A stretch of 39,627 bases of DNA from Gammaproteobacteria bacterium. Lineage in GTDB: Bacteria; Pseudomonadota; Gammaproteobacteria; SZUA-152. The DNA lies in contig JAJDNG010000206.1 in NCBI GenBank assembly GCA_022340845.1, forward strand, positions 1 to 39,627, written 5' to 3'. How positions within the stretch are numbered: position 1 is the first letter of the stretch; each line of letters begins with the position of its first letter. The notes under the pieces were generated by a model, which did no database searches, was not told the origin of the DNA, and was given only the letters and a program-made list of their open reading frames with translations. Of the stretch, positions 4,367-26,641 are shown piece by piece. The position numbers and the translations under genes were made by a program.

Positions 4367-6793
4367 CTATTCGACGTTTATGGTGGCAATCTCCGACTGC
4401 TCCGGCGTCATCGGCACCCTTGCCTGGATATGGTGTCTGCCCGGTTGAAGATGCAAGCGCGTCGAATAAGGATAGTCCACCAACTGGTACGGTTCGTTGT
4501 CCACATACCAAACGACTTGCGCAATGGGCGGCTCAACCGTGGCATTCAGCGCAATACTGCTGCTCTGCTCCGGGGCATCCGGATTGCGCAGGATGTGTAA
4601 GCCGTTTTGCGGAGACGTTATGTCAATCTTGACCCGTAAATCACGCGGCAAAGCGGCGGGTCTATCAATTGTTTGCGGTTGAACCGCTTTTTGAAAAGCC
4701 ACCATTTGTTTTTTCGCGATCCAATCGGCGTAGCGCGGGGGAAGATTCACCATGGTTTGAAGCCGCTTGAATTGAGGTGGCGTTTGAATTGATGCCGGTA
4801 ACCCGGTACGCACATCCACTGACATCCGCACATAAACATTATCCACCTCTTCAGGCACCTTACCCACCGGCAACCACTCCCGATAGACAAATTCACACGC
4901 CGTACCGGCCAATTTCCCACTGGTGGCACATAAATCCGCGCTGACATAATTGTCCGGGGCAGGGAAACTGACATCCGTAAGGCCATGGCGCTGTCCGGCG
5001 TGCAAATGCAACATAATCTGACGAGCCAATACTGCGGCACTGCCGGCGCCGTTTAATCTATCCATGGGCCGGGGAACGGCGTGACCGACCCAGACTCCCA
5101 CAACATAATGTTTTGAATACGCAACCGTCCAAGCATCCCGATAACCTTGCGATGTACCCGTCTTCAATGCCACGGGGAAAGCATATTCCGTGGTTCCCAT
5201 CCTCGGAAAAGTAGGCAACCGCGCGCTGGGATCGGATAAAAACAACGTAATCAGTCTGGCGACGGCCGGGGAAAATAGTTGCTCACCAGTCAAGTTGTCA
5301 TTGTTGTTACCATTATTGGCCGTGCGCAGCCATTGTAAATCACGATAACGGCCTTCATTGGCCAACGCTGCATAAGCACGCACTACATCTTGCAGCCGAA
5401 CCGGGAGACTGCCCAGCGCCATACCTTGACCGAAATGCCTGGCCGGCAAGCGATGCTGATGTAAAGCAAGTCGGCCGAACAAGCCATAGGTCTCATCCAG
5501 CCCCACCCGATTCAGTACACGGATAGCGGGAATATTACGGGAATTACCCAACGCCTGGCGGGGCAACATAGGCCCCAGGAAACGATGATCGGAGTTGCGA
5601 AAGGGATACTGCGCCATGGGTAAATCGTCGATAATGGTATTCGCGGTAATGACGCCCCGCTCCAGCGCCAAGGCATAGATAAACGGTTTAAGTACGCTGC
5701 CTGATGAACGCTTAATTTGGGTAAAGTCAATAGCACCGTTGTTGGATTCATCGAAGTAATTATCTGACCCTATCCAGGCCAGCACTTCATTACTGCGTCT
5801 ATCCAGGACTATCGCTGCGACATTGCCCGCGCCTTTTGCTCGCCAGCTCTGCATCAACTGGCGGCTGAGTTGGGTTACATTTTCCTGCAACGTCAAATCG
5901 ATACTCGCGGTCACCAATGGAGAAGCCGGTGTTTGGCGCAATTGTTCCTCCAACTTAAGGATGGCATGAATCGCGTTGCGCGGCCGCTCCTGGCGGTGCG
6001 GCAACCGGATCGTGCGTATTTCCGCCACTGCCAGCGCCATTTCGGCGTCTGATATGACCTGGCCGGCGTGCAAACTTTGCAACAAACGTTTCCCGCGCTG
6101 TATGGCCCGATAGCGTCCTTTGGGCGTGAACGGATTCATTCGACTGGGTGACTGGGGAATGGCTGCCAGAAAGGCGATTTCCGCCCAGCTTAAATCTTCT
6201 ACCGGTTTGTCAAGATAGCGCCGCGCAGCGTAGCCGATACCGTGAATACGATTACCATAAGGTACCCAGCGTAAATAGTTGGCCAATACTGCCTCGCGCC
6301 CATACCGCAGCGTCATGATGACTGCTGCCAGAGCTTCTATGGTTTTGTTGACATAGCTGCGTTTAGCGGGATGTTGCAACCGCACCAATTGCATAGCTAA
6401 AGTAGATGCCCCGGAGATACGCTGCTGATTCGACATGTTTTGCCATACTGCTCTGCCTATGGCCAGTGGGTCCACACCGGGGTGCAACCAGAAGCGCTGG
6501 TCTTCCAGGGCCAGGGTGGCGGTTACGACACGCGACGGCAATTCGCCCATTGGCCAGAAGCCATATCCGGTATAGCCTTCACTTTCCAACTCGGCCATGA
6601 AAGTACCGTGACGGTCTGTAATCAGCGAACTGGCAGCGGGTGTCACTATGTCGGATCGCCAAATGGCCGCAAGCATGATCGTTATTGCAGCCAGCAATCC
6701 CGTGCCCAATAAAACCTTCGCAACGGTGCGATAGCAAGGTAGGGTCAGTTTCACGCCCTGTTTATTAACCAATGATGCTAAATTCAATGCCAT
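4367..6793 (-). CDS. pbpC: Penicillin-binding protein 1C (bifunctional transglycosylase/transpeptidase)
   Basis: An 808-residue class A PBP acting at the inner membrane on peptidoglycan. An N-terminal anchor helix (about residues 26-45) precedes the GT51 transglycosylase, with catalytic-type Glu97 in ALEDQRFW, GASTLAMQLVR, and later motifs. The transpeptidase has SxxK at Ser366-Lys369 (GSVLKPF), an SxN-type SRN in GNSRNIPA, and KTGTS at about 544. The C-terminus carries a BiPBP_C beta domain (from ITSPQNGLHILRNPDAP, about 710-805), diagnostic of PBP1C. Length fits (E. coli PBP1C 770). It is the third gene of the minus-strand envelope operon, 102 bp after the alpha-2-macroglobulin gene, as in the E. 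coli yfhM-pbpC pair. The ATG at 6793 lacks a strong ribosome-binding site. Confidence 0.96.
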   Translation of the reverse strand: MALNLASLVNKQGVKLTLPCYRTVAKVLLGTGLLAAITIMLAAIWRSDIVTPAASSLITDRHGTFMAELESEGYTGYGFWPMGELPSRVVTATLALEDQRFWLHPGVDPLAIGRAVWQNMSNQQRISGASTLAMQLVRLQHPAKRSYVNKTIEALAAVIMTLRYGREAVLANYLRWVPYGNRIHGIGYAARRYLDKPVEDLSWAEIAFLAAIPQSPSRMNPFTPKGRYRAIQRGKRLLQSLHAGQVISDAEMALAVAEIRTIRLPHRQERPRNAIHAILKLEEQLRQTPASPLVTASIDLTLQENVTQLSRQLMQSWRAKGAGNVAAIVLDRRSNEVLAWIGSDNYFDESNNGAIDFTQIKRSSGSVLKPFIYALALERGVITANTIIDDLPMAQYPFRNSDHRFLGPMLPRQALGNSRNIPAIRVLNRVGLDETYGLFGRLALHQHRLPARHFGQGMALGSLPVRLQDVVRAYAALANEGRYRDLQWLRTANNGNNNDNLTGEQLFSPAVARLITLFLSDPSARLPTFPRMGTTEYAFPVALKTGTSQGYRDAWTVAYSKHYVVGVWVGHAVPRPMDRLNGAGSAAVLARQIMLHLHAGQRHGLTDVSFPAPDNYVSADLCATSGKLAGTACEFVYREWLPVGKVPEEVDNVYVRMSVDVRTGLPASIQTPPQFKRLQTMVNLPPRYADWIAKKQMVAFQKAVQPQTIDRPAALPRDLRVKIDITSPQNGLHILRNPDAPEQSSSIALNATVEPPIAQVVWYVDNEPYQLVDYPYSTRLHLQPGRHHIQARVPMTPEQSEIATINVE

Positions 6794-6895
6794 AAACGTC
6801 TACGCCCGACAATTGGTGCACTTCAATTTTATGAATTTTGCAACCATCAATACAGTCTTATAACTTTGTATCACAACCCGTACGTGAAACGCACT

Positions 6896-9800
6896 CTACT
6901 GACTGTTTTCCGAGACATCAGCAGGTGTTATTTCTATCCTCGCGCCCGCCGAATTACCCCGCACCGCCTCCTCATACATCATTTCCGCATAGGCCGCCGG
7001 TTGGGTAAAACTACCGGGCACCGTGGCGCGGGTTCGGAAATAAAAATCGTAATTACCCCTGGGGAGACTGTCATAGTAAAAAGCCACTTGATCGTCCAGA
7101 TAGGCAGCGTAGCTGGGCGCTAAAGTAATCCGGCCGTTGGGTTCGGCTTCTGGCGGCGCGGTGGCAAGACGCGGATTCAATATCTCCAGTCCTGCCGCCA
7201 AGGGCACCACGACGGCAACATAAGTGCGGTCGACAGAGTTGACGATCTGCACATGGTCTTCGATCACATCCCCGACATTTAATGCGACAGATTTTGAGGC
7301 CGTATCCAGTGCAATGCGTTGCATGGGTTGCTCCGGTGCAACCAATTTGAATAACTCGCGGTTGACCACAAAACCCTGCGCCAGCGGTTGTACATGACTG
7401 CCATCGGCTTGGGGTACAAAGCGGGTTTCCGCACGAATCACGACAGCTTGTTCACCGGCGGTATATTGGATTAACCCCGCTTTCGGCTGGATGGACACTG
7501 TTTTCACCAAGCGTTCGTTATCACTGAGTTGTATGGATTGCCGGGCTCCGTCCAGTTGGATGGTGACATCCTGCACCGTCTGCTGATCGCCAGGCCGCTC
7601 TGGCGGCGGTTGCATGAACTGGCTGAGCGCCAACAACGCCGACGCATTGGCGTTGGTGCTGCCCCAACCATCGTCTTTACCCAAAGTGGTGAGGCCATTG
7701 ACCAGGGTTTGCAAACGGGGATGTGAATTATGGGTTTGCTGTAATGCAAGCACTATCTCCGCCATGGTTCGGGTTTCACTGGGTAACACCAGCGTATTCA
7801 GTGGCAGGCTGTTGGTTTGCAAACCGCCGTAGATTTCATCGCCACGATACAATCTGAAAACCAATCCTTCCCACAAGCGTTGGTTGAGTTTTTCCAGCGT
7901 AGGCGCGGCGGACTCGCCCATATCCTTGGCCAGGACCCGCATGACTCTTGCGGTGCTTTCCAGATTCAAATAGCGGGATTTTCGGGCCAGTTCCGCTGCA
8001 TAACTGGCATTGGCTTTGCCGGCCGCTGATAACGCCCACAATGCCATGGTTCGTTCGGTATAATGCTCGCCGGTGATAAAATAACGATAATCGGAACGCA
8101 ACGATTGCTGCAGACTTCGGGTAAGCTCGTCCAACAAAGGCTCGTCAATGGGATAACCGGCATCACGCACTTCCAGCAGGAATTGCACTACCCACGCGGT
8201 TAATGATACGTAGCCTGTAGAGCCGGGCCAATACCCGGCCAAACCATTGCTGTCAATGACATCATTAACCCACTGCAAGGTTTGTTGAACGTTACGGTCT
8301 ATATCGCTTTGCTCGTATTCGCCGCCCAATAATTGGCGGAAATTTTTTACCGCGAGAAAACCCCGCGTCCGGCTGATACGTTGTTCAGTACATCCATGAG
8401 GATATTCCATCAAGTAGTTTAGGCCCGCTGCCATTTTTATGAGTCCGGGCTGATTGGATAACAACACACTGCGCTTAAACGTACCGTTGCGCACGGCTTC
8501 TGTTATGGCGGGCAATTCAAATTGCTCGCCGGCGGCGAACTGTTTAATCTGCCGTTGAATCGTCGCCTGACGGTCCGGATGCAGTGGTATGGATACTTCG
8601 AAAGCATCACGCGCTTTGTCATCCTGCCGTTCCACCGCGCAAGTGAATTTCACTTCGTGGTTGCTTAACTCGCCTTTTTCATTGTATTGAGGCGTTGGCA
8701 CACTGACATCAAAATCCAGGCGCCGGGGTTTGGCCTTCTCCCAAGTAAATTTCTTCACGCGGTCGCCTTGCAACGCCAAACCCTCTGTTTTCACCGTGGC
8801 CAGGCCTTGGCCGCCTTCGCCTTCCACGATACGGCCGATAGCACTCGCCGTGAAACGGTCACCTGGGCGGACAAAACGTGGCAATGCCGGTTGCACTATG
8901 ACCGGCAAACGCACCGCAATGCTGCCCTTGGCAAAACCGAAACGGCTGGCGCCACTGATGGCCTTGGCGCGCAGTTTGAAATTGGTCAGGTTATCCGGCA
9001 TTTTGATACTGATACTCGCTTTGCCGCTGTCATCAATCGTTATCGCGGGATTAAAATACGGCACGGCTTTAAAGTTCTTCCGTACTGTCACTTTATCGAT
9101 AAGATCGGCGGCTTCCGCGGCCACGGCGTCACCTCCGCCGGGTTGTTCTTCAAACGGCAAATGACCAAACGCCAGATTGCGCGTATCCCGAATACCGACC
9201 ATGGATTGTGGACTGCTGATAAAATCCGGCAGCGGATCCAGACGTTGTTCCTTGGCCAATGCCAGCACCGCCTGATCCACCAACCATAGGGTGACTTCTC
9301 CGGGTAACGGTTTGCCGTGATTGTCCTGCAAGGCAATTTGAACGCTAATTTCTTCTCCGGGCATGACTTTTTCGGGCGCTTGCACCTGCACATCAACCCT
9401 ATGCGCAACCGGTTTGACTTCCACCCACTGGGTCGCCGCCACGGTGGCCGGCTTGCCTAAATCGATTTGTGTGAGTGAAGGTGCGCCATCGCCTACCCTG
9501 CCCCGCATTAACACAAAGTGCACTGGGATACGCGGTGTGTATTCAGTATCTATGACGAACTGGAAGGTTGCCGAACCACCGCGCACATCAATCCACTCAT
9601 ATCGGTTTTTATCAGGTGCTTCGATGATCGCCAGCGCCCGCGCCTTTTGATAAGGACTTTGCAATATCAAGCGTGCGGTGTCACCTGGTTCGTAATCCGT
9701 CTTATCCGTGCTCACGGTAAATACCGACGCCGGAGCCTGCGCCCAGGTCACCGGCTCGTCACCACCTACGTAAAGATCCACACTGACCACCTGGGCACGG

Positions 9801-12742
9801 CCCAATTGGTCGTGGGACTCCAGCTCGATGATGTATACCCCGGAGGATTGAATGGGCAAATCCAACGCAAACGGTTGCTCGCGGCTCACTATGGATTTTT
9901 CCAACATCGTTTCATCCACGACTTCGGTGACGTATTTCGCCGTGGCCTGGGAAAAATCGGCCGCTTGCAAGTGCGAATGCCACTGCCGTTTGAGTAAACG
10001 TAAAGTAATAGGTTGATTGGCAAGTAGCTTGCCGTCGGCGCCCACCGCGATGATCTCCGGGCTGATCACCTCAGCTTTTTCCAGATAGCGCGGCGCTTTT
10101 ATACCCAACACCACCGCCGGCAACGCCACGACGCGTTTAGTGTTACTCACTGTCTGGTCGTCCGCACCGGTGACCGTAGCTTCAATGACATAGCTGCGAG
10201 GCTGAGCGGCCGGTTCTATGGCCGGGTCCAACTGCAAAATCGCGGAGCCGTTTTCGTCGGTTTCACTTTGTTGGCTGATCACCGGCGAGGAGCGAAACGC
10301 CTGGCGATTGGAAAAACGCGCATCCGTTGAATACAGGAATCCAGGGCGTTTTTCCGGAGTCCAGGTGTAGGGAAATTGAGTGACGCGCCAACGCACGGGC
10401 TGGCCGCTCACTTGCCCTCCCGCGTAATATCCAGCTGTCAGGGTGACGTTGAACTTTGTATCCAGCGATACTTTGTCCGTTGCGTGCAACTGAACTTCAA
10501 AACGGGGAATGCGATAGGCCTCTTTTTCAAAATACAGTGAACCACAGCGACCGATACCATCCAGTTCCAGGTGAGCGTTGTACCCCCCGGTGGGCAACTT
10601 ATCTTCCTGGAATTTATGGTAAATGCTGCCATTGCCGGTAGAAGTTAAGTTATATCGCCACTCTCGGTTCCCCGGGCCGGTCACCACTAACTGGCCTTTG
10701 GCCTGCAATATACTGAACTGGCTTTGGAAGCGGGTGCGCAGATAGCCTTTGATATGCACCTCATCCTCCGGTTTATATAACGGGCGATCGCTGAACAAAT
10801 GACACATGTGTTGTTTATTTGAGGCGCGCCCGGCTAATGACTCTACGGTCCATTGCAACCAGGTCCCGCCGGTACTGCGCCATAAATTATTACTGAATTG
10901 ATCCGGTGGCCGTGTGGGATCCAACACCAAAACATCATCGCCCTTTTCAACCACGATGCGTTTAATAAACACTGGCCTGCTCGGATAATGATAGCCCGGC
11001 GCTTGCCAATGATAATTCCCTTGCGAGTCGGTTACGCCCGAGGCAAGTGTGATCCACTGATCATTTTGCACGCCTTCCACCCGGATCTTCGCTTTGGGTA
11101 CGGGATCCGCGGTTCGCAACGACGTGACGCTGAATTTTACCCCGGCGCGTTCTTCCACCGCGGTTAAACTCAAGTCGGTCACTTGCAGACGTATCCAACT
11201 GCGGATGGTCGAATCATCCAGGCGGCGTATACCCACTATGTAACTGCCGGGTTTCTGCTCGCCCGCAATGCGCGCAAAATATTCCTGCAACGTCAATCCA
11301 AATTTCGCACTGGCGCCATTGCGCCGCAAAGGAATATCCACAATGCCGGAATACGCCGGTGATCCTAACGATCGAATCTGGTGTTTTAATTCGAAGGGGG
11401 ATATGTAACGTGCAGGCTGGGTAAACGGTTCGGCTCTTTCGCCGGGTCCCGGTGGACGGGTCGCTTCGTCAATGGCAACGGCTTGTTGCGGAAACGGCCA
11501 GAAGCTCCGGTCCAGCGGGTCAATGGTATATATGCGCAAATCCAACCTATCATGACCGCGACCTTTAACAGGCACCGCCTGCGGCCCAAAGCGCTCCACT
11601 ATGCCCTGACTGACTTCCCACTCCAAAAAGGGATGTTTGGGTGGAAAGAAAAAAAACAGCTCATTGACGCCACTGAGTTGCAACAAACGTTGCCGCTGGT
11701 CGCTGATGGGGCCAGGCACCAGGTTCAGTTGATACAAGGTATCCGCGGCAAATTTGCCACGCGCACTGAGCGTATTGCCATATTGACTGAACTGCAAATC
11801 CTCAACCGTTGGCGTCATGCGCAATAGGTTGCGTGCTTGTATAGGATTGAGTTCCGCCAGAGAGGAGGAAAATTCCACCTCGATAACACGATTGCTGCTA
11901 TTGCATTGTATGGCTTGTTCTTTACTGTAACGTACCCCTTCAGGCGTGGCAGGATAACGATTGGCCGCACAACCAAAGCGCACAACCCGAAACGGCTCGG
12001 CAGTGGCAAAATGAATTTGTTTAAACGACTGTTGCATCGCATCATGCAAGGACAAGCGCAAATGCACGATCACGCGCTGGCCGGCGTTTATGGGTTCATT
12101 GAATAGCAGAGTATATTCAGCGGGATCATTGCGCTGACTGCGATCACCGACTTTGATTTGAAAATCCTTTTTGTCCAACCAGCGGGGATTGAGTTCACCG
12201 ACTCCAGGCAAGGCGCGCAACTCAATGCTTATCATATCGGCCAATGCCTGCACGTCCAGTGGTTCATCGAATCTCAATGCCATACTTTGCAGCGGATCCA
12301 ATCCAGTGGCACCGTGGGCGGGAGTGGTACTGCGTGGCGCGGACATTAAGGTATACAAGCGATATTCCCGCTGCTTACCTGCACCGCGTTTTATTTGCCA
12401 ATCAAATTCTGCCAGGGGCGGCCAGGGTTCGGCGGGACGAAATTGCAACGTGCGGGCATTGATCCAGGTGTAAGCGCCGGGATGCTTGGGGTTGACTGTC
12501 ACAAATCGTTCAGCGTGGTCTTCCGACCGGGGAGTGTCCGGCCCAATGTCCCGGTCAAAAAATATCGTCACCGGATCCCAGCGGCGCAAAAAAGGTTTAG
12601 GTATTATTTGCGTGTCACGGGGAGCACTTACCGTACCCTTCGCCGGTAATTGCAAATATGGTTGATCGACGGCCGCCGCTGCAACGCCAGAGAGCAGAAA
12701 AACGGACAATACCAATAACCAGTTTAGAGAAAATAATTTCAT
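6896..12742 (-). CDS. Bacterial alpha-2-macroglobulin with thioester motif
   Basis: A 1948-residue exported protein. Family members trap proteases in the periplasm by a bait region and a reactive thioester, and are thought to work with PBP1C when the wall is breached. The signal peptide (about 1-24) ends GVAAAAVDQ and has no lipobox Cys, so the protein appears soluble, whereas E. coli YfhM is a lipoprotein. An MG2-type domain begins near residue 645 (FSDRPLYKPEDEVHIKGYL). A bait-region-type domain lies at about 1030-1180. The A2M core (about 1240-1330) has DNLTNFKLRAKAIS. The thioester motif YPHGCTEQ has Cys1451 and Gln1454, followed by an alpha-helical TED-like domain and a C-terminal beta domain. 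It is longer than E. coli YfhM (1653). The start has AGGA about 9 nt upstream. It lies 76 bp after the giant gene. Confidence 0.93.
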   Translation of the reverse strand: MKLFSLNWLLVLSVFLLSGVAAAAVDQPYLQLPAKGTVSAPRDTQIIPKPFLRRWDPVTIFFDRDIGPDTPRSEDHAERFVTVNPKHPGAYTWINARTLQFRPAEPWPPLAEFDWQIKRGAGKQREYRLYTLMSAPRSTTPAHGATGLDPLQSMALRFDEPLDVQALADMISIELRALPGVGELNPRWLDKKDFQIKVGDRSQRNDPAEYTLLFNEPINAGQRVIVHLRLSLHDAMQQSFKQIHFATAEPFRVVRFGCAANRYPATPEGVRYSKEQAIQCNSSNRVIEVEFSSSLAELNPIQARNLLRMTPTVEDLQFSQYGNTLSARGKFAADTLYQLNLVPGPISDQRQRLLQLSGVNELFFFFPPKHPFLEWEVSQGIVERFGPQAVPVKGRGHDRLDLRIYTIDPLDRSFWPFPQQAVAIDEATRPPGPGERAEPFTQPARYISPFELKHQIRSLGSPAYSGIVDIPLRRNGASAKFGLTLQEYFARIAGEQKPGSYIVGIRRLDDSTIRSWIRLQVTDLSLTAVEERAGVKFSVTSLRTADPVPKAKIRVEGVQNDQWITLASGVTDSQGNYHWQAPGYHYPSRPVFIKRIVVEKGDDVLVLDPTRPPDQFSNNLWRSTGGTWLQWTVESLAGRASNKQHMCHLFSDRPLYKPEDEVHIKGYLRTRFQSQFSILQAKGQLVVTGPGNREWRYNLTSTGNGSIYHKFQEDKLPTGGYNAHLELDGIGRCGSLYFEKEAYRIPRFEVQLHATDKVSLDTKFNVTLTAGYYAGGQVSGQPVRWRVTQFPYTWTPEKRPGFLYSTDARFSNRQAFRSSPVISQQSETDENGSAILQLDPAIEPAAQPRSYVIEATVTGADDQTVSNTKRVVALPAVVLGIKAPRYLEKAEVISPEIIAVGADGKLLANQPITLRLLKRQWHSHLQAADFSQATAKYVTEVVDETMLEKSIVSREQPFALDLPIQSSGVYIIELESHDQLGRAQVVSVDLYVGGDEPVTWAQAPASVFTVSTDKTDYEPGDTARLILQSPYQKARALAIIEAPDKNRYEWIDVRGGSATFQFVIDTEYTPRIPVHFVLMRGRVGDGAPSLTQIDLGKPATVAATQWVEVKPVAHRVDVQVQAPEKVMPGEEISVQIALQDNHGKPLPGEVTLWLVDQAVLALAKEQRLDPLPDFISSPQSMVGIRDTRNLAFGHLPFEEQPGGGDAVAAEAADLIDKVTVRKNFKAVPYFNPAITIDDSGKASISIKMPDNLTNFKLRAKAISGASRFGFAKGSIAVRLPVIVQPALPRFVRPGDRFTASAIGRIVEGEGGQGLATVKTEGLALQGDRVKKFTWEKAKPRRLDFDVSVPTPQYNEKGELSNHEVKFTCAVERQDDKARDAFEVSIPLHPDRQATIQRQIKQFAAGEQFELPAITEAVRNGTFKRSVLLSNQPGLIKMAAGLNYLMEYPHGCTEQRISRTRGFLAVKNFRQLLGGEYEQSDIDRNVQQTLQWVNDVIDSNGLAGYWPGSTGYVSLTAWVVQFLLEVRDAGYPIDEPLLDELTRSLQQSLRSDYRYFITGEHYTERTMALWALSAAGKANASYAAELARKSRYLNLESTARVMRVLAKDMGESAAPTLEKLNQRLWEGLVFRLYRGDEIYGGLQTNSLPLNTLVLPSETRTMAEIVLALQQTHNSHPRLQTLVNGLTTLGKDDGWGSTNANASALLALSQFMQPPPERPGDQQTVQDVTIQLDGARQSIQLSDNERLVKTVSIQPKAGLIQYTAGEQAVVIRAETRFVPQADGSHVQPLAQGFVVNRELFKLVAPEQPMQRIALDTASKSVALNVGDVIEDHVQIVNSVDRTYVAVVVPLAAGLEILNPRLATAPPEAEPNGRITLAPSYAAYLDDQVAFYYDSLPRGNYDFYFRTRATVPGSFTQPAAYAEMMYEEAVRGNSAGARIEITPADVSENSQ

Positions 12743-12774
12743 TACGACTTTTCCTAGTGACCTATGCTAATGGT

Positions 12775-12816
12775 GGTTACTAATGACAATTACAAATGAC
12801 GGTTACTAAAAACAAT
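12775..12816. repeat. Short direct repeat in the spacer between the giant gene and the macroglobulin gene
   Basis: GGTTACTAATGACAAT (12775-12790) recurs as GGTTACTAAAAACAAT (12801-12816), 14 of 16 bases identical at a 26-bp period. It fills most of the 76-bp gap between the two giant genes. It could be a slippage product, a binding site, or an mRNA element affecting expression of the downstream gene. No function can be assigned. Confidence 0.45.
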
Positions 12817-12818
12817 GC

Positions 12819-15800
12819 CTATTGATCAGACGGCGTGTCAAGCTTACGGCCTGATTGCTGCAAATAGTGTTGAATAACCTCACTCGGCGGGCCAGCCGGC
12901 GGTCGCTCCAGTCCCACCAACGCAGGGCGAATACGTACTGGCAAGCTATTCGCCGGCACTGTAACCGAGAACACATAATGACCGGGCGCCAACTCCGGCA
13001 TGTGCACCACACCACGGCTGATAATGTTGCCCGCGCCGTCCATCAACATACCGCTGACCACGTCCGCCGAAGCTTGCACACCCAAACCTACCGGACCTTG
13101 TTGTTTGACTTCGAAACCATACATCCTGGTATCACCGCCACTGAGCATGGACTGCGGCCCATAACCTTCCTGAATAGGCACAATGGGCAGGGTACTGATC
13201 ATCGCCATACCCTCCATGGCCGAAGATCCCAGACTTTCCAGCGCAACATAATTGGGACCTGCGGGAAGATATACCGCATAGTTCATGCTGTGAGGATGTG
13301 CTTCGACAATTTCTCCGCCGTCAGCATAAACTATGCGACTGATAAGCGGCGTATCGCTTCGCAGCAGCAACTGCATGCCGTGCGTTGCTGCGACTTGAAA
13401 CGCTGTCCTTTCTCCCTGCAGTGGAATACTTTGGGCGGTTGTCACATCCAGTAGTGGAACCGGCATATGCGGCTTATCGGTAGAAGCACTATCCAACCAA
13501 GCGTAAATAACCCCGGGCTGATGATTTATAAGCAATTCGCCGGGAGCGCGAATGGCCAATTCCCTGCCCTGCACTATCTGGCCGTTGGATTGTAGAAAAG
13601 TGCCTCGGGCAGCGCCGCGTATCCTTATAATGGTGTTATCCGCATTGAGATGAACAGGTATTCGCAGTTGTCCAATGTTTGTTACGTGTCGTTTGAATAT
13701 GCGGCCCGGGACCAAAGATGAGCCTGTTTCCGGTGAGTCTGAATCCATGTGGTCTACAGTGGCGATGGACAACGCGAAGTGCAGAGCTTCGGCGCCGGCA
13801 TTGAAAATCAGGATTTTATCGGCCCGGCTGTAGGCCGTTTCGTTCAGCGGCATCTTGCCTGACCAATGGGTGCTGAGAATCGTATCTCCCTGCAAACACA
13901 CCGCAGCCGCTTGCGCCGGTAATACCAAACCGATTCGCTTCATTCCCCGGGGCAGATTCAGAGGGATCGCTGTTAACGTGGATAACGCATGTTCGAACTC
14001 GCCGGAGCTTATAGTTTTGCTTTTATCAACGGTAAACAGAAGCCGTCTTACACTGACCTCCAGCGGTGCGGCGATCGACGCTGCATTCCAAAGGTTAACA
14101 ACGGGACTTCTTGGCTCAAGTAACACCGAAACCGCCGACTGCTGAGCAACGGCGAAGCGTCGGATATCGCGCGGCGTGTCTGAGGCAAGCCCGGTATTCA
14201 CCAACTGCACACCCGCCAGCCCGGTGCGAGACTCTGCGATGACCAACATCGGCCGCTCCGCGCTCCCCATATCCAATTGGCTGGTTTGCGATGCAGGTGC
14301 TAGCAACTGCAATGTGTCGGTCGCACGCCCATCACCCATGGCCTGGTCTAGAACCACCCGTTTTACGATGAGTTTGGATGCGGCGTTATTTTCCCCAATA
14401 GGCCTGGCGACCCACAATGTAGTGCCCGTCGCTACCATCAAGCCGTTATAGGATTCGCTCAGCGGTAGTCCGGGCTGTGCGGACCAAAGCACATCATCGG
14501 CATCGGCCACCGTCATTACACCTGGGCGGGTAAGTTCGATTGCAGCAACGGCAAAACGGGGTGGTGTTTGAGTGGGAGCCGAAACGGGTTGCAGGGTTAT
14601 ATCGCTAGCGCGTGTCGCCTGCTCACGAAAGCGGTGGGGTTCTACCGCTTGCGCCTGAACCGATATGGGTGCTCCGCGCCGGTCCAACGACCAGATTTTA
14701 AGCCGATAAGCCTGTGTACCGGAAGGACTTACCGGAACCAGCAATCGAGCGTGTTTTCCGTTGTGCCACGCTATTTCCTTCCAGTCGTTTGGATGTTGCA
14801 AATCACCGGTTGCAGCTTCCAGGCTTAAGCCAACCGCATCATCAGAATCCGCCTGGGCGATCAACAGCGATGCCGTAACCGGTAATGGCAAGGGATAAAC
14901 ATGTGCATCTGTATCGTTAACCGTTGTGTTAAACGGTAATGACTGCGCGTCGCCATAGCGCACATCTGGGGAACGCATCAATACTTCTGTGGATTGAGTA
15001 TCACTGCCCACCGCTTCCACCTCCAGACGATACTCGCCGGCAGGCAGTTTTTGTGCAATAAAAAAATTCCAGTCATTACTACGATCATCACCTTTTGCCA
15101 CCAATGTGCCGTTTTTGTCGTATAACCTGGCCCGCACATCGTTTTGTCCGTATGACCATAGTTCGATCAGGTTTTTCTGGCCGACAGCGACAGCAATGCT
15201 GGCAGGCACAGGGACATGACGCTGTTGGCCGACCATCAGTTGCCGGCTGGATACCTTCAATTGATAGTTAACAAGATTGTTCCGGCGCAGATTTAGTACG
15301 GCCAGTTGATAGTCGCCCGCCGCCAATGTGCCTTGCCACGGTTTCACCGGGGTGGAGACAGCGATAATGTCCTGAGTCTTACTGTCGCGGCGCACCAGTT
15401 CTCCGCGCATGTCATTATTTAAGTCAATGTGCACCTCAGCCTCAGCGGGCAGTTGAAACCGCCAAATATCCGGCCGACGAGTCTTACCGCTTTGCGGCTC
15501 CCGCCATTCATGTTCTACGCTTTGGTCAATCTCGATCCTATGGGGTCCATGACCCTCATATCGAATGGGTTCGGCAACGGCCTCAAGGGTCGCCACCAGC
15601 CGGGCGTCAACGGCTTCAGGGCGGATGACCATGCGGTAGTCCCCAACATTAAACTCGCGGGTGATATCAGCGGCAATATTAGGCCGCTCGATAGGCCAAC
15701 CATCGGCGTCTTCCAGGCGCATGACATAGGTACGCCCGGCGCCAATGGCGCGCACGCGATATTTTCCTTTTTGGGGAATAGTAAATCGATATAACAAACC

Positions 15801-18086
15801 CTTGCCGGCTTTTAACGTTGCCCTGGCAGCGACTTCCGTGGTCAATCTGCCGCCGTCTTCAATGGCGGTGCGGGCCAGACTCACCCCTAAATGGCCACGG
15901 GACTTATTTCTTGGCTCCACAGTCAGTTGATAATCGCCCTCCCGCAAATACTGCTGTATGAGGAAGTTGCGTCCGACACCATTGGCATTTTGTTTCACCA
16001 AAGAGGGAATCGTGCGGGTGCGTAGATTGCCTTGTGTTTCCAACAATCCCGTGCTCTCCAGTCGATACAATGCGGGTTTGTCCACATTCAACGACAATGT
16101 CGTTTCCTGATCACGATCCAAGTCGTAATATTCCGTACGTGCCGCGGTTAAGCCGGGGAACTCGGGGATGGCGCTTTTTATTTTTGGCGGAAGCGCTGGA
16201 AGCGGTTCAGATTTACTCAGCCGCTTGGCGGCGAATTCCAAGGAATAATTGACAGTGGTACTGCCGGAGTTTCGAACGGAAACACGATATTCACCACGAG
16301 ACAGATTTAAATTCTCTTTCCATAGCGCACTGTCCACATTAGCGGATAAAGACAGCGGCAGCGCTGCACCCTCGGTCGTTAGTGCGCGCACCAGCCCCGC
16401 TTCGGGGACTCTAACCGGAATGGTAACCGTCTCATTAGCGCGCTGCATAACGGGCAAGGCCGCCGACAAATCCACAGGCACCGGCCGTAGCACAACACCC
16501 GCTTTGACACCCGGTTGTTGATTCAAATACAAGGTGTAATAGGAGTCGCGATATAAATCAACCACACCATAGCGGGTGGCCCCTGCGACGCTCGTGGTGG
16601 AATTGTCGCGAAACCGCAAATAACCCTCTTTTTCCACCGTCAGCGTGATTATGCCTTTTAGTTCGGGCCGCACGGTTAACACATAAAAGCCCGCATCGAG
16701 ATCCCACTTATAACCGCTGTCTTCGAACGGTGGCGCTTCATAGTCTCGGGGTCTTGAAGTCATAAATGGTTCGATGCGATATTTTGCGCGAACACCTTCG
16801 CCTTGCCCCTGAATAATATAGTTGCCCCGTTCGATTATTTCGAGATATAGCGTTAAGGTATCCAGCAGGTTGAAACGCCGCTGGTACCTATGGGCGCGAT
16901 TAAGCGGTATGACGCGGGCTTCCATCAACCGCTCCGACTGATTCCATGGCCGGCGCGTCAATACGGACGTCGCATCAACCGAGTCCTCGGCGGCACCGGA
17001 GTGTATCGAGCTGAGCCAATAACGTCCCTCTTCGTTGATGGAATAGCGCCAGCGTTTTTCGAAATGCTGCAAAATATAGCTCTGACCGGCCATTGCCGTT
17101 ACACTAATCAAGCGATCCGATTTTTGCGTGGCCAGTTCCAGTTCGGCGACCGGTGGTATGAGTTTTTTAGTGATAGTAGCGGTTCTTCCCAAAGGGGAAA
17201 ATGCGTCGTGTTCCCGGAAAGTATCCGCGGTTATGGAGATCGCCGTCGCCTCGGGTACGCTGAGGTGAAAATAATTACTGTTTCCCGGCACCAGATAACG
17301 GTCGGTGCCAAACGGGCTAACGGTATAACGCCGTTGCCCGGTTTCCTGCAAACGGGGTATACCGTAGCGAATATGCAAGGGGTGATCATCGCTTTGCTCC
17401 GTCCAGGGCTGGGCGGGTCCGCCATAGGCGGTTAGCAAATACAGGCCGGGTTGCAATTTCGCGTTAATCTGCATGGCTTGCAGCGGCTTGTCCGGATCGG
17501 GCACAATGGTCTTTGCCTCGGGAATTATATCCAGCAGCCAACTACCGTCTTTCCAGAGACGCAAATCCGCCAGGTTACGGCCTGCCGCTTCCACGGCGAT
17601 GGTTTCCGGTTTTTCAATGTGCAGCCAAAACGAGCGCTGTTGCAAATCTTCCAGGCTTAAGGAGATGTTTTTGAGTTTGACCAGTTGTGGGATGTTGTTG
17701 GCATGCAGTTCGGCAAATGCATGCACCGAAAGCTTGCTCTGCCCGGTTCCGGATTCATGGGCATAGGTGATAATTTGGTAGTCACCGTGTTCGAGAAACA
17801 GATCCAGGCGGCCGTCTTGCTCGCCTGCTATGCCAGCGATATCACCCGGCCCTGCCATGCGATCAACATATTGCAGCGCCGTACCCTGATCGCTGTCGAC
17901 CAACACGGCATAACGACCAAATTTGCTTATGTTGAGTATAGTGGAATGCTTTCCCTGCGCCGGCAACAGGTTGGACACCAGGCGTGCCGATCCGATTTGC
18001 TGATTTTGGTTTGAGGATTGCGCGTAAGCCTGAGTAAATCCGAAAAAAGCGACGCAGTACAATGCCAATACATTTATTGTTTTCAT
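12819..18086 (-). CDS. Giant exported protein of unknown function, repeated beta-sandwich-like modules, first gene of the macroglobulin-pbpC operon
   Basis: I do not recognise this 1755-residue protein. I chose ATG 18086 (track TTG at 18176) because it opens a clear signal peptide (MKTINVLALYCVAFFGF, cleavage near AYA-QS at residue 22). There is no lipobox and no later membrane helix. The mature protein is almost all beta-like and carries a recurring strand motif G-x-Y-x-[LVI]-x-[VI] (GRYAVLV near 57, GEYRVSV, GDYQLTV, GDYRMVI, GDYQLAV, GEYRLEV, GHYVFSV near 1702). This resembles arrays of PPC-like (bacterial pre-peptidase C-terminal) sandwich domains. No catalytic motif is seen. As first gene before the alpha-2-macroglobulin and PBP1C genes in the same orientation, it may be a periplasmic partner or scaffold; this is inference. 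Its ribosome-binding site is weak. Confidence 0.85.
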   Translation of the reverse strand: MKTINVLALYCVAFFGFTQAYAQSSNQNQQIGSARLVSNLLPAQGKHSTILNISKFGRYAVLVDSDQGTALQYVDRMAGPGDIAGIAGEQDGRLDLFLEHGDYQIITYAHESGTGQSKLSVHAFAELHANNIPQLVKLKNISLSLEDLQQRSFWLHIEKPETIAVEAAGRNLADLRLWKDGSWLLDIIPEAKTIVPDPDKPLQAMQINAKLQPGLYLLTAYGGPAQPWTEQSDDHPLHIRYGIPRLQETGQRRYTVSPFGTDRYLVPGNSNYFHLSVPEATAISITADTFREHDAFSPLGRTATITKKLIPPVAELELATQKSDRLISVTAMAGQSYILQHFEKRWRYSINEEGRYWLSSIHSGAAEDSVDATSVLTRRPWNQSERLMEARVIPLNRAHRYQRRFNLLDTLTLYLEIIERGNYIIQGQGEGVRAKYRIEPFMTSRPRDYEAPPFEDSGYKWDLDAGFYVLTVRPELKGIITLTVEKEGYLRFRDNSTTSVAGATRYGVVDLYRDSYYTLYLNQQPGVKAGVVLRPVPVDLSAALPVMQRANETVTIPVRVPEAGLVRALTTEGAALPLSLSANVDSALWKENLNLSRGEYRVSVRNSGSTTVNYSLEFAAKRLSKSEPLPALPPKIKSAIPEFPGLTAARTEYYDLDRDQETTLSLNVDKPALYRLESTGLLETQGNLRTRTIPSLVKQNANGVGRNFLIQQYLREGDYQLTVEPRNKSRGHLGVSLARTAIEDGGRLTTEVAARATLKAGKGLLYRFTIPQKGKYRVRAIGAGRTYVMRLEDADGWPIERPNIAADITREFNVGDYRMVIRPEAVDARLVATLEAVAEPIRYEGHGPHRIEIDQSVEHEWREPQSGKTRRPDIWRFQLPAEAEVHIDLNNDMRGELVRRDSKTQDIIAVSTPVKPWQGTLAAGDYQLAVLNLRRNNLVNYQLKVSSRQLMVGQQRHVPVPASIAVAVGQKNLIELWSYGQNDVRARLYDKNGTLVAKGDDRSNDWNFFIAQKLPAGEYRLEVEAVGSDTQSTEVLMRSPDVRYGDAQSLPFNTTVNDTDAHVYPLPLPVTASLLIAQADSDDAVGLSLEAATGDLQHPNDWKEIAWHNGKHARLLVPVSPSGTQAYRLKIWSLDRRGAPISVQAQAVEPHRFREQATRASDITLQPVSAPTQTPPRFAVAAIELTRPGVMTVADADDVLWSAQPGLPLSESYNGLMVATGTTLWVARPIGENNAASKLIVKRVVLDQAMGDGRATDTLQLLAPASQTSQLDMGSAERPMLVIAESRTGLAGVQLVNTGLASDTPRDIRRFAVAQQSAVSVLLEPRSPVVNLWNAASIAAPLEVSVRRLLFTVDKSKTISSGEFEHALSTLTAIPLNLPRGMKRIGLVLPAQAAAVCLQGDTILSTHWSGKMPLNETAYSRADKILIFNAGAEALHFALSIATVDHMDSDSPETGSSLVPGRIFKRHVTNIGQLRIPVHLNADNTIIRIRGAARGTFLQSNGQIVQGRELAIRAPGELLINHQPGVIYAWLDSASTDKPHMPVPLLDVTTAQSIPLQGERTAFQVAATHGMQLLLRSDTPLISRIVYADGGEIVEAHPHSMNYAVYLPAGPNYVALESLGSSAMEGMAMISTLPIVPIQEGYGPQSMLSGGDTRMYGFEVKQQGPVGLGVQASADVVSGMLMDGAGNIISRGVVHMPELAPGHYVFSVTVPANSLPVRIRPALVGLERPPAGPPSEVIQHYLQQSGRKLDTPSDQ

Positions 18087-24939: not shown

Positions 24940-25488
24940 TTAACGTGCCTGGCGGCGGCGTTGCAAGGCTCGCTTTTGTTGCGGGCTGAGATTTTTATAT
25001 CGTTGGCGGATTCTTTGTTTGGCCTTGTGCTTTTGCTCGGGGGTCATGTTGTTCCACCTCTCACGCAACTGTTGTTTTTTATCCGGCGACAAATCTTTGT
25101 ACCATTGATATCGCTTGCGAATCCTGGCTTGTTCCTCCGGGGAAAGTGATTTGAATTCCTGAAACTTATTACGCAATAATTGTTTCTTGTCCTCGGGCAG
25201 ATTCTTCCAGGTGGAAAAACGCTGTTTCATTGTGTCACGCTGTTGCGGCGTAGCCTGAAGCCAACGTTCGGCCCCGGCGAGCAAACGTTTTTTTCGTTCC
25301 TCGGGAAAAGTGCCCCATTGGGACTCAAAGCGCTGCAGCACTTGTTGCTGTTCTGGCGTCAGCGTATTCCACTGCATCGGTGGCTCCTCGGCAAATCCCA
25401 CTGCCGGTAACATTGGCAACGTCGCTAACAAAAACACGAGCAAGAGCAACCGCGATGCCAGGAAAGATTTTAATAACCGCTTACTCAT
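24940..25488 (-). CDS. DUF3106 family exported protein
   Basis: A 182-residue protein starting MSKRLLKSF, with a signal peptide to about residue 36 (GFAEEP). The mature part is highly basic and consists of about seven roughly 18-20-residue helical repeats of the form W-x-x-L-[ST]-P-E/D-x-[QK] (WNTLTPEQQ, WKNLPEDKK, YKDLSPDKK, YKNLSPQQK), the hallmark of DUF3106. The repeat resembles the LTxxQ motif of Spy/CpxP-type periplasmic proteins, but chaperone function is only an analogy. I chose ATG 25488 over the track's 25602: GAGGATC precedes it, the signal peptide begins here, and its ATG overlaps the upstream stop by 8 nt, which implies translational coupling. DUF3106 genes commonly follow ECF sigma operons of this type. 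Confidence 0.85.
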   Translation of the reverse strand: MSKRLLKSFLASRLLLLVFLLATLPMLPAVGFAEEPPMQWNTLTPEQQQVLQRFESQWGTFPEERKKRLLAGAERWLQATPQQRDTMKQRFSTWKNLPEDKKQLLRNKFQEFKSLSPEEQARIRKRYQWYKDLSPDKKQQLRERWNNMTPEQKHKAKQRIRQRYKNLSPQQKRALQRRRQAR

Positions 25489-25750
25489 GGGATTGATCCT
25501 CATCATTACGCTGTTTTTCACGCTGATTTTCACGTTGTTGTTCATTCGGCTGTTCATTCTGCTCCATGTCCAATAAATCCAGTGGGTCGATCCACTCGCC
25601 ATCCTCGGTTTGAAATTCGCCCAGGAATTCGAGCAACTCCATGCTGGGCGCTTCCACGGTATCCTCGTTAGCCGCGGCTGCGGTTGCGACCAACCAGGCG
25701 TTCAGTAAGACAATAGTTGCAAACTGCTGAAATGGTTTAACCCACATCAC
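25481..25750 (-). CDS. Small exported acidic protein of the ECF sigma operon
   Basis: An 89-residue protein with an N-terminal signal peptide or anchor (about 1-27, ending TAAAANED). A conserved-looking core PSMELLEFLGEFQTEDGEW (about 35-53) is followed by IDPLDLLD, and the tail is very rich in Gln, Asn, Arg and Glu. It starts GTG-ATG, so either 25750 or 25747 could be used. It overlaps the upstream anti-sigma-like gene by 11-14 nt and the DUF3106 gene by 8 nt. Its tight packing and the conserved core, which I recall next to DUF3106 genes in other gammaproteobacteria, argue that it is real. Biochemical function is unknown. An accessory periplasmic role in signalling to the sigma factor is speculation. 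Confidence 0.75.
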   Translation of the reverse strand: MMWVKPFQQFATIVLLNAWLVATAAAANEDTVEAPSMELLEFLGEFQTEDGEWIDPLDLLDMEQNEQPNEQQRENQREKQRNDEDQSHE

Positions 25751-26117
25751 CGTGCTCTTCCGCCAGCCATTGATAAAAATCCAGCTCTTCGTACAGTTCC
25801 AGGTCTTCCGGGGCCGTCAATAACGGCATATCTTCAACACTCGCTATGGGGGAGGATTCCTGGTTAGTTTGAATTTGATAAAAACTGACAGCGATCACTA
25901 ACGTGAGCGCCGCAATCCCACCAGCCGGTATAAGCCATCCTGGAGCTGTTTTTGAAGGCTTGTCGAGCGCTTCTGCGGCGGTTCGCACCGCAGCACGCCT
26001 GGCCTGCTGCAACCGTCGGCGCACATCATCATCCAAAGTAAACTTGTCATCCAATGTGGATTTGGCCGCGTTAAGCAGCTCTTCATCGGTCAACGGCGTG
26101 TTTTTGCTATCACTCAT
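25737..26117 (-). CDS. Single-pass membrane protein, probable anti-sigma factor (DUF3619-like)
   Basis: A 126-residue protein with a cytoplasmic N-terminal region of about 60 residues rich in charged helices (DDDVRRRLQQARRAA). One membrane helix lies at about 64-84 (WLIPAGGIAALTLVIAVSFY). The acidic periplasmic tail contains ELYEELDFYQWLAEEHG. Layout and position directly after the ECF sigma gene (4-nt ATGA overlap) suggest an anti-sigma factor that holds the sigma factor at the membrane. The sequence resembles DUF3619-type proteins, which often occupy this slot. There is no zinc-binding HxxxCxxC (ZAS) motif, so it would be a non-ZAS type. In Pseudomonas the SbrI/SbrR pair is a comparable arrangement. 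The function is inferred from context. Confidence 0.75.
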   Translation of the reverse strand: MSDSKNTPLTDEELLNAAKSTLDDKFTLDDDVRRRLQQARRAAVRTAAEALDKPSKTAPGWLIPAGGIAALTLVIAVSFYQIQTNQESSPIASVEDMPLLTAPEDLELYEELDFYQWLAEEHGDVG

Positions 26118-26641
26118 AAACGATGATCCTCAAGTTGATCCCGCAACGTTTTCATTGCGCGGGATAAATGGGTTTTTACACTGCCTGACGAACAATTCAT
26201 TGCCTCCGCAGTTTCCGCGACGCTCATCCCTTCCCAAATGCGCAACAAAAACGTTTGTTGCTGTCTTAGCGGGAGACGATGTAACGCTGCATCCAGTGCT
26301 TCCAACGTTCTTTCATTTATCAGTTTTAACGCCGGGTTATTATCAATCTCTGTCCGGAATTCTTCCAATTCCACAGTACCGGCGCATTTGTCCGGCGGGT
26401 CAATGCTCTTGCCGATGCCGGTTGCGCTCAGAAAAACCCGCCATGAATTACGGACTTTTTGCCGCCGGTGCCAGTCCATGATGGTATTTTGCAGTATGCG
26501 GTGAAACAGCGGACCCCACTCCTGAGGATCTTGCCCGGCGTATTTCTGGGCTAATTTCAACATGGCATCTTGTACCACATCCAGCGCATCGTCCCGGTTT
26601 CCGGTGGCAATAAGTGCCAGCCGGTACGCCCGCTGCTCCAC
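26114..26641 (-). CDS. ECF-family RNA polymerase sigma factor
   Basis: A sigma70 ECF protein of 175 residues from the track GTG start. Region 2 is seen in GNRDDALDVVQDAMLKL, and FHRILQNTIMDWHRRQ is the 2.3-2.4 part that recognises the -10. A linker of about 50 residues follows. Region 4 (LPLRQQQTFLLRIWEGMSV, then AMNCSSGSVKTHLSRAMKTL) contains the helix-turn-helix for the -35. The frame stays open upstream to 26690 and encodes LGTPQALDQFLTN, which looks like the missing start of region 2.1. A perfect AGGAG sits 6 nt before CTG 26680, so the true start may be that CTG (188 aa). The gene heads a five-gene operon and is probably autoregulated through the membrane protein that follows. Confidence 0.92.
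   Translation of the reverse strand: MEQRAYRLALIATGNRDDALDVVQDAMLKLAQKYAGQDPQEWGPLFHRILQNTIMDWHRRQKVRNSWRVFLSATGIGKSIDPPDKCAGTVELEEFRTEIDNNPALKLINERTLEALDAALHRLPLRQQQTFLLRIWEGMSVAETAEAMNCSSGSVKTHLSRAMKTLRDQLEDHRL

Follow-up and report, generated by a model that had tools for sequence, protein, structure and literature searches.

The exported 1755-residue protein ORF1 is encoded directly ahead of an alpha-2-macroglobulin (A2M) gene and the gene for PBP1C, and both this linkage and the dedication of ORF1 to a single A2M lineage are well supported. As ORF1 stands directly before this A2M lineage wherever the arrangement could be checked, it is very probably an obligate partner in envelope protection. 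In the window, by which we mean the whole 39,627-nucleotide stretch of DNA that was analysed, the three genes are adjacent on the minus strand in the order ORF1 (12819..18086), A2M (6896..12742) and PBP1C (4367..6793). The first-pass annotation had described them as three co-oriented giant envelope genes with gaps of only 76 and 102 bp and no terminator in between, and the coordinates bear this out, the gaps lying at 12743..12818 (ORF1-A2M) and 6794..6895 (A2M-PBP1C). Neither gap holds a terminator-like site, the regional frequency of such sites being no higher than in shuffled sequence. ORF1 was read from the ATG at 18086, and an in-frame TTG would lengthen the frame to 18176.

The cassette is flanked by ppc (identified by its sequence), a divergent rlmJ, an OmpA-family gene and a GGDEF-EAL gene, and nothing suggests that any of these belongs to it. 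Searches for phage origin or phage copies of the cassette returned no matches, and a search for plasmid copies close to the window DNA found none. Also on the minus strand, at 24940-26641, an ECF-type sigma factor gene is followed by a 126-aa open reading frame and a DUF3106 gene.

The N-terminus of ORF1, MKTINVLALYCVAFFGFTQAYAQSS, reads by inspection as a Sec-type signal peptide of about residues 1-23 (18018..18086, minus strand), with the junction between ...FTQAYA and QSS, in agreement with the export claimed earlier. No internal transmembrane or hydrophobic segment was found in the window protein. The earlier statement that it carries no recognised enzymatic motif also stands, as the domain search for an enzymatic domain found none: ORF1 scored above cut-off against nothing in Pfam or NCBIfam and matched no PDB sequence. 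Residues 974-1036 gave weak CarboxypepD_reg, Y_Y_Y and DVUA0089-type matches, all below cut-off. The "repeated beta modules" of the first-pass annotation were recovered in two ways. Profile self-comparison revealed internal repeats with E-values down to 7e-10, the best pair being residues 716-826 (15609..15941, minus strand) and the related module at residues 923-1028 (15003..15320, minus strand; E 7.1e-10), and AlphaFold models of two overlapping halves were all-beta with mean pLDDT of 91.5 and 85.5. Local Foldseek searches with the model reached a probability of 1.00 for the ColG s3 collagen-binding modules (5iku), CUB domains and SIDT jelly-roll domains. These confident models portray ORF1 as a long chain of beta-sandwich modules, about a dozen of them or more, of PPC/CUB/jelly-roll-like type. 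A PPC-like fold as in ColG s3 is one candidate for the ORF1 modules, with CUB and SIDT domains matching equally well (1.00) in local Foldseek. In contrast to the PPC/ColG proteins, ORF1 is a long chain of modules without a peptidase, and its sequence matches to them are weak: PPC (PF04151) was matched weakly and below the gathering score in 6 of 22 ORF1 homologues, with no match reported for the window protein.

The same models bear on whether ORF1 might itself be a divergent macroglobulin or a fragment of one. A2M structures (4u4j, 4ziq) do rank high in the global Foldseek lists, but at TM-scores below 0.1 and an rmsd of more than 30 A these matches are not meaningful. Profile-profile comparison (hhalign) of ORF1 with the cassette A2Ms gives a probability of 0.1% and hence no relation, and the window protein lacks a thioester motif and, apart from its signal peptide, contains a single cysteine, so that this origin is very improbable.

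The A2M of the window (1948 aa) carries bMG10, A2M_BRD, A2M and MG2 domains, all above cut-off, and an intact thioester motif YPHGCTEQ of the CxEQ type characteristic of Type I (Cys1451; GCTEQ at 8381..8395, minus strand). As this protein has a bait-region domain of its own and ORF1 shows no profile similarity to A2M, the "bait" function once put forward for ORF1 is the weakest of the earlier suggestions. The PBP1C (808 aa) matches the TIGR02073 equivalog above cut-off, has Transgly, Transpeptidase and BiPBP_C domains, and retains both its transglycosylase and its transpeptidase motifs as expected of the bifunctional enzyme.

Searching one genome per species gave 42 ORF1-related loci in Pseudomonadota, Nitrospirota, Acidobacteriota, Thermodesulfobacteriota, SAR324 and Myxococcota, the collection having been scanned with two peptide patterns that may miss more distant relatives, possibly some without A2M. 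The survey of neighbours proposed in the first-pass annotation came out in favour of a fixed arrangement. Downstream sequence was readable at 33 loci and A2M followed directly on the same strand at all 33, while the remaining nine are cut off by the end of a contig or are fragments lying close to one; the scattered homologues lacking A2M/pbpC neighbours that had been named as counter-evidence did not turn up among these 33. PBP1C came next after A2M in 29 of the 31 loci where this could be tested, with two further loci leaving the contig past A2M. At the two exceptions a PBP1C closely related to that of the cassette was found 5.7 kb further on the same contig (G014, 912 bits) or elsewhere in the genome (G768, the genome of locus L034, 667 bits). 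When the search was started from the A2M profile, ORF1 lay directly upstream in 15 of 15 genomes with a high-scoring A2M (the genome of the window excluded). This count is independent of the 33 of 33 as regards the starting gene of the search but not fully so otherwise, since one genome (G451) appears to be the contig of locus L012 and others may overlap in species. That unrelated large genes merely happen to be adjacent in the window might be supposed from the rarity of ORF1, found in 2 of 57 genomes in a sample of relatives; the same order and orientation in several phyla, recovered from either gene, refutes such an accident, to which we attach practically no probability.

The junctions in the relatives are mostly a 4-bp overlap of stop and start codons or a few bases, and the many ORF1-A2M junctions at -4 bp, where the window has its 76-bp gap instead, suggest that translation of the two genes may be coupled. 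Protein distances are correlated between ORF1 and A2M (r 0.97, non-redundant set) and with PBP1C (r 0.88-0.90), a part of which is shared species history. In a class sample of 274 genomes, full-length ORF1 (>1400 bits) was present in four, and the same four hold the cassette-type A2M (1682-2983 bits). Eighteen other genomes of the sample have only distant A2Ms (<=193 bits) without full-length ORF1; as most genomes were scored for their two top candidates only, weak paralogues could have gone unnoticed. Conversely, no ORF1 match was present in the sequence read at 21 non-cassette A2M loci including E. coli yfhM-pbpC, and at the 18 of these loci with readable upstream sequence, where another large partner was looked for, the preceding genes vary from locus to locus with no ORF1-like giant. 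The cassette is sporadic, being absent even from one genome of the same genus, and large Rhizobium plasmids carry it, a location which is consistent with its horizontal spread. In databases the relatives of ORF1 are annotated as "hypothetical protein" or receive an LprI family name from the LprI domain alone.

Two further loci were recorded during this survey. The cassette of locus L015 (NZ_VCCH02000083.1, "Mycobacterium sp. KBS0706") is very similar to those of Inquilinus limosus (L029, L033) as regards gene lengths, spacing and terminal sequences, and for this reason the record appears to be either misnamed or a mixed assembly. A Nitrospiria contig has a second, distant A2M-like gene (L046:1093-7044) about 2.9 kb upstream of its cassette.

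In a tree of 42 A2Ms, those linked to ORF1 form a single branch (SH-aLRT 100) and YfhM falls in another, and the cassette A2Ms are, as judged from sequence, a lineage separate from the E. coli-type yfhM-pbpC. The pair known from E. coli (ECAM, Type I) has in common with the cassette an A2M gene followed directly by PBP1C and the CxEQ thioester. It differs in having no ORF1 upstream, where sseA lies divergently, and in the 1653-aa YfhM with its lipobox; scored on the profile of the cassette A2Ms, YfhM reaches 115 bits, and on that of the cassette PBP1Cs, PbpC reaches 356.5 bits where the complete cassette PBP1Cs that were read score about 925-1095. The first-pass annotation had placed ORF1 in an extended A2M-PBP1C system: what holds is that ORF1 is a constant third member, but of a system built on a separate A2M lineage and not as an extension of E. 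coli yfhM-pbpC. The A2M-PBP1C system itself was reportedly proposed in a 2004 survey. No description of ORF1 or of the distinct A2M clade was found in the open-access literature, a coverage that does not include that survey. The pair is already known, whereas the third gene and the distinct clade, for which no description was found, are apparently undescribed. A paper on root-nodule bacteria mentions PAN-domain A2Ms, an architecture unlike that of the cassette.

As a functional precedent for a partner dedicated to an A2M, the mag operon of Pseudomonas aeruginosa serves best; there the Type II A2M MagD forms complexes with its operon partners, is bound and stabilised by these neighbours, and is unstable without MagB (PMC5764988). 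MagD has no thioester and belongs to a six-gene operon (partners MagA, B, C, E and F), whereas the cassette combines PBP1C with a single giant partner and an A2M that in most members has the thioester. Judged by these features alone, the window A2M falls outside the Mag type, as its thioester is present and its co-oriented neighbours are ORF1 and PBP1C.

The strict dedication to one A2M lineage, the exported multi-module architecture and the MagD precedent make a scaffold or capture function the most likely role of ORF1. We infer co-transcription of the three genes, a physical complex of their products and this scaffold/capture role; the specific proposal that ORF1 is a dedicated periplasmic scaffold or capture partner of the distinct A2M lineage, in a three-part envelope-protection operon, is in our estimate about equally balanced between being right and wrong. 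Linkage of the genes does not in itself establish an ORF1-A2M complex, and ORF1 may contribute to the same process on its own. It might, for example, serve as a decoy for bacteriolytic proteins or enzymes that degrade peptidoglycan, or inhibit them, and be expressed alongside A2M and PBP1C without joining them in a complex. PPC/CUB/jelly-roll-like folds are generic binding modules and would suit such a role. So would the LprI domain (PF07007, the LprI/ScwA family) that is fused to the N-terminus of ORF1 in 7 of 22 homologues, four of which (L007, L014, L038, L044) exceeded the Pfam cut-off when scanned singly. The domain occurs in rhizobial and some other alphaproteobacterial homologues, where it spans about 80-90 of some 1860 residues, and one Rhizobium plasmid ORF1 is annotated as "lysozyme inhibitor LprI family protein". 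The first description of LprI concerned a protein that confers resistance to lysozyme, but ScwA, a Salmonella protein with an LprI domain, plays no part in such resistance and instead changes the levels of peptidoglycan hydrolases (PMC7933661). Given ScwA, the clue points to wall attack or turnover in general and not specifically to lysozyme, and in this sense the fusions fit the theme of envelope protection. The domain is, however, absent from most of the homologues examined, and the domain search found no PF07007 in the window ORF1. Moreover, ORF1 tracks one A2M clade and was unseen with other A2M-PBP1C pairs, for which a specific partnership is the better fit, and an independent defence protein is accordingly a possible but doubtful reading. 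At a locus without ORF1 (L118:3354-9491, genome G008), a non-cassette A2M beside PBP1C is itself fused directly to LprI at its N-terminus, just above the threshold (22.8 bits against a cut-off of 22).

A further reading is suggested by the absence of a lipobox from the signal peptide of the window A2M and from the cassette A2Ms read, unlike E. coli YfhM (LAGC); the motif was also seen in L110 and L111. ORF1 might be a tether to peptidoglycan, polysaccharide or the outer membrane that localises the non-lipidated A2M and takes no part in capturing attackers. The resemblance of the PPC-type modules to a collagen-binding domain fold and the N-terminal segment resembling an uncleaved anchor in a few homologues (e.g. 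L010) would agree with a tether. Many A2Ms outside the cassette, however, also have no lipobox and manage without ORF1, and domain searches of the window protein and its homologues found no recognised wall-binding domain, so a role limited to tethering is improbable. The motif is not a requirement of the family, as many other bacterial A2Ms do without it, and on this ground we rejected the argument that the lipobox of this A2M was lost owing to anchoring by ORF1.

In the scaffold/capture model that we prefer, ORF1, the distinct A2M lineage and PBP1C would form a single co-inherited and probably horizontally mobile envelope-protection cassette. The A2M would trap proteases entering the periplasm, as is established for its relatives, and PBP1C would rebuild damaged peptidoglycan as has been proposed for the A2M-PBP1C pair, which is viewed as a periplasmic defence and repair system (PMC4498604, PMC5764988). 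ORF1 would bind the non-lipidated A2M and hold it in place, perhaps close to the peptidoglycan or to PBP1C, while its modules may offer binding surfaces to incoming lytic proteins; in the alphaproteobacterial ORF1s the added LprI domain would extend capture to wall-degrading enzymes. More tentatively, and with the balance tilting slightly against it, ORF1 and its A2M clade may represent a further class of bacterial macroglobulin system, in which a complex of two giant proteins acts with PBP1C to protect the periplasm, mainly in environmental bacteria, from proteases as well as from wall-lytic enzymes, the system being passed on as a cassette.

Bacterial macroglobulins resemble the complement and A2M proteins of animals, and a dedicated giant partner that accompanies a single A2M lineage at all loci where this could be tested, in several phyla, offers a direct handle on their function. 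The cassette occurs in groundwater, sulfur-oxidising and root-nodule bacteria, which suggests that the attackers are not animal-host proteases alone and may include predators, competitors and plant enzymes.

The cassette A2Ms of Rhizobium differ at the thioester itself, where the cysteine is replaced by serine (PYGSTEQ; L014, L016, L017, L019-L022, L027, L028, L031, L036 and L045), while the other aligned cassette members retain the cysteine. The idea that gain of LprI tracks loss of the thioester was rejected, as L007, L038 and L044 have LprI yet keep the cysteine. From their aligned motifs, the Rhizobium cassette A2Ms appear to be a natural thioester-minus sub-branch.
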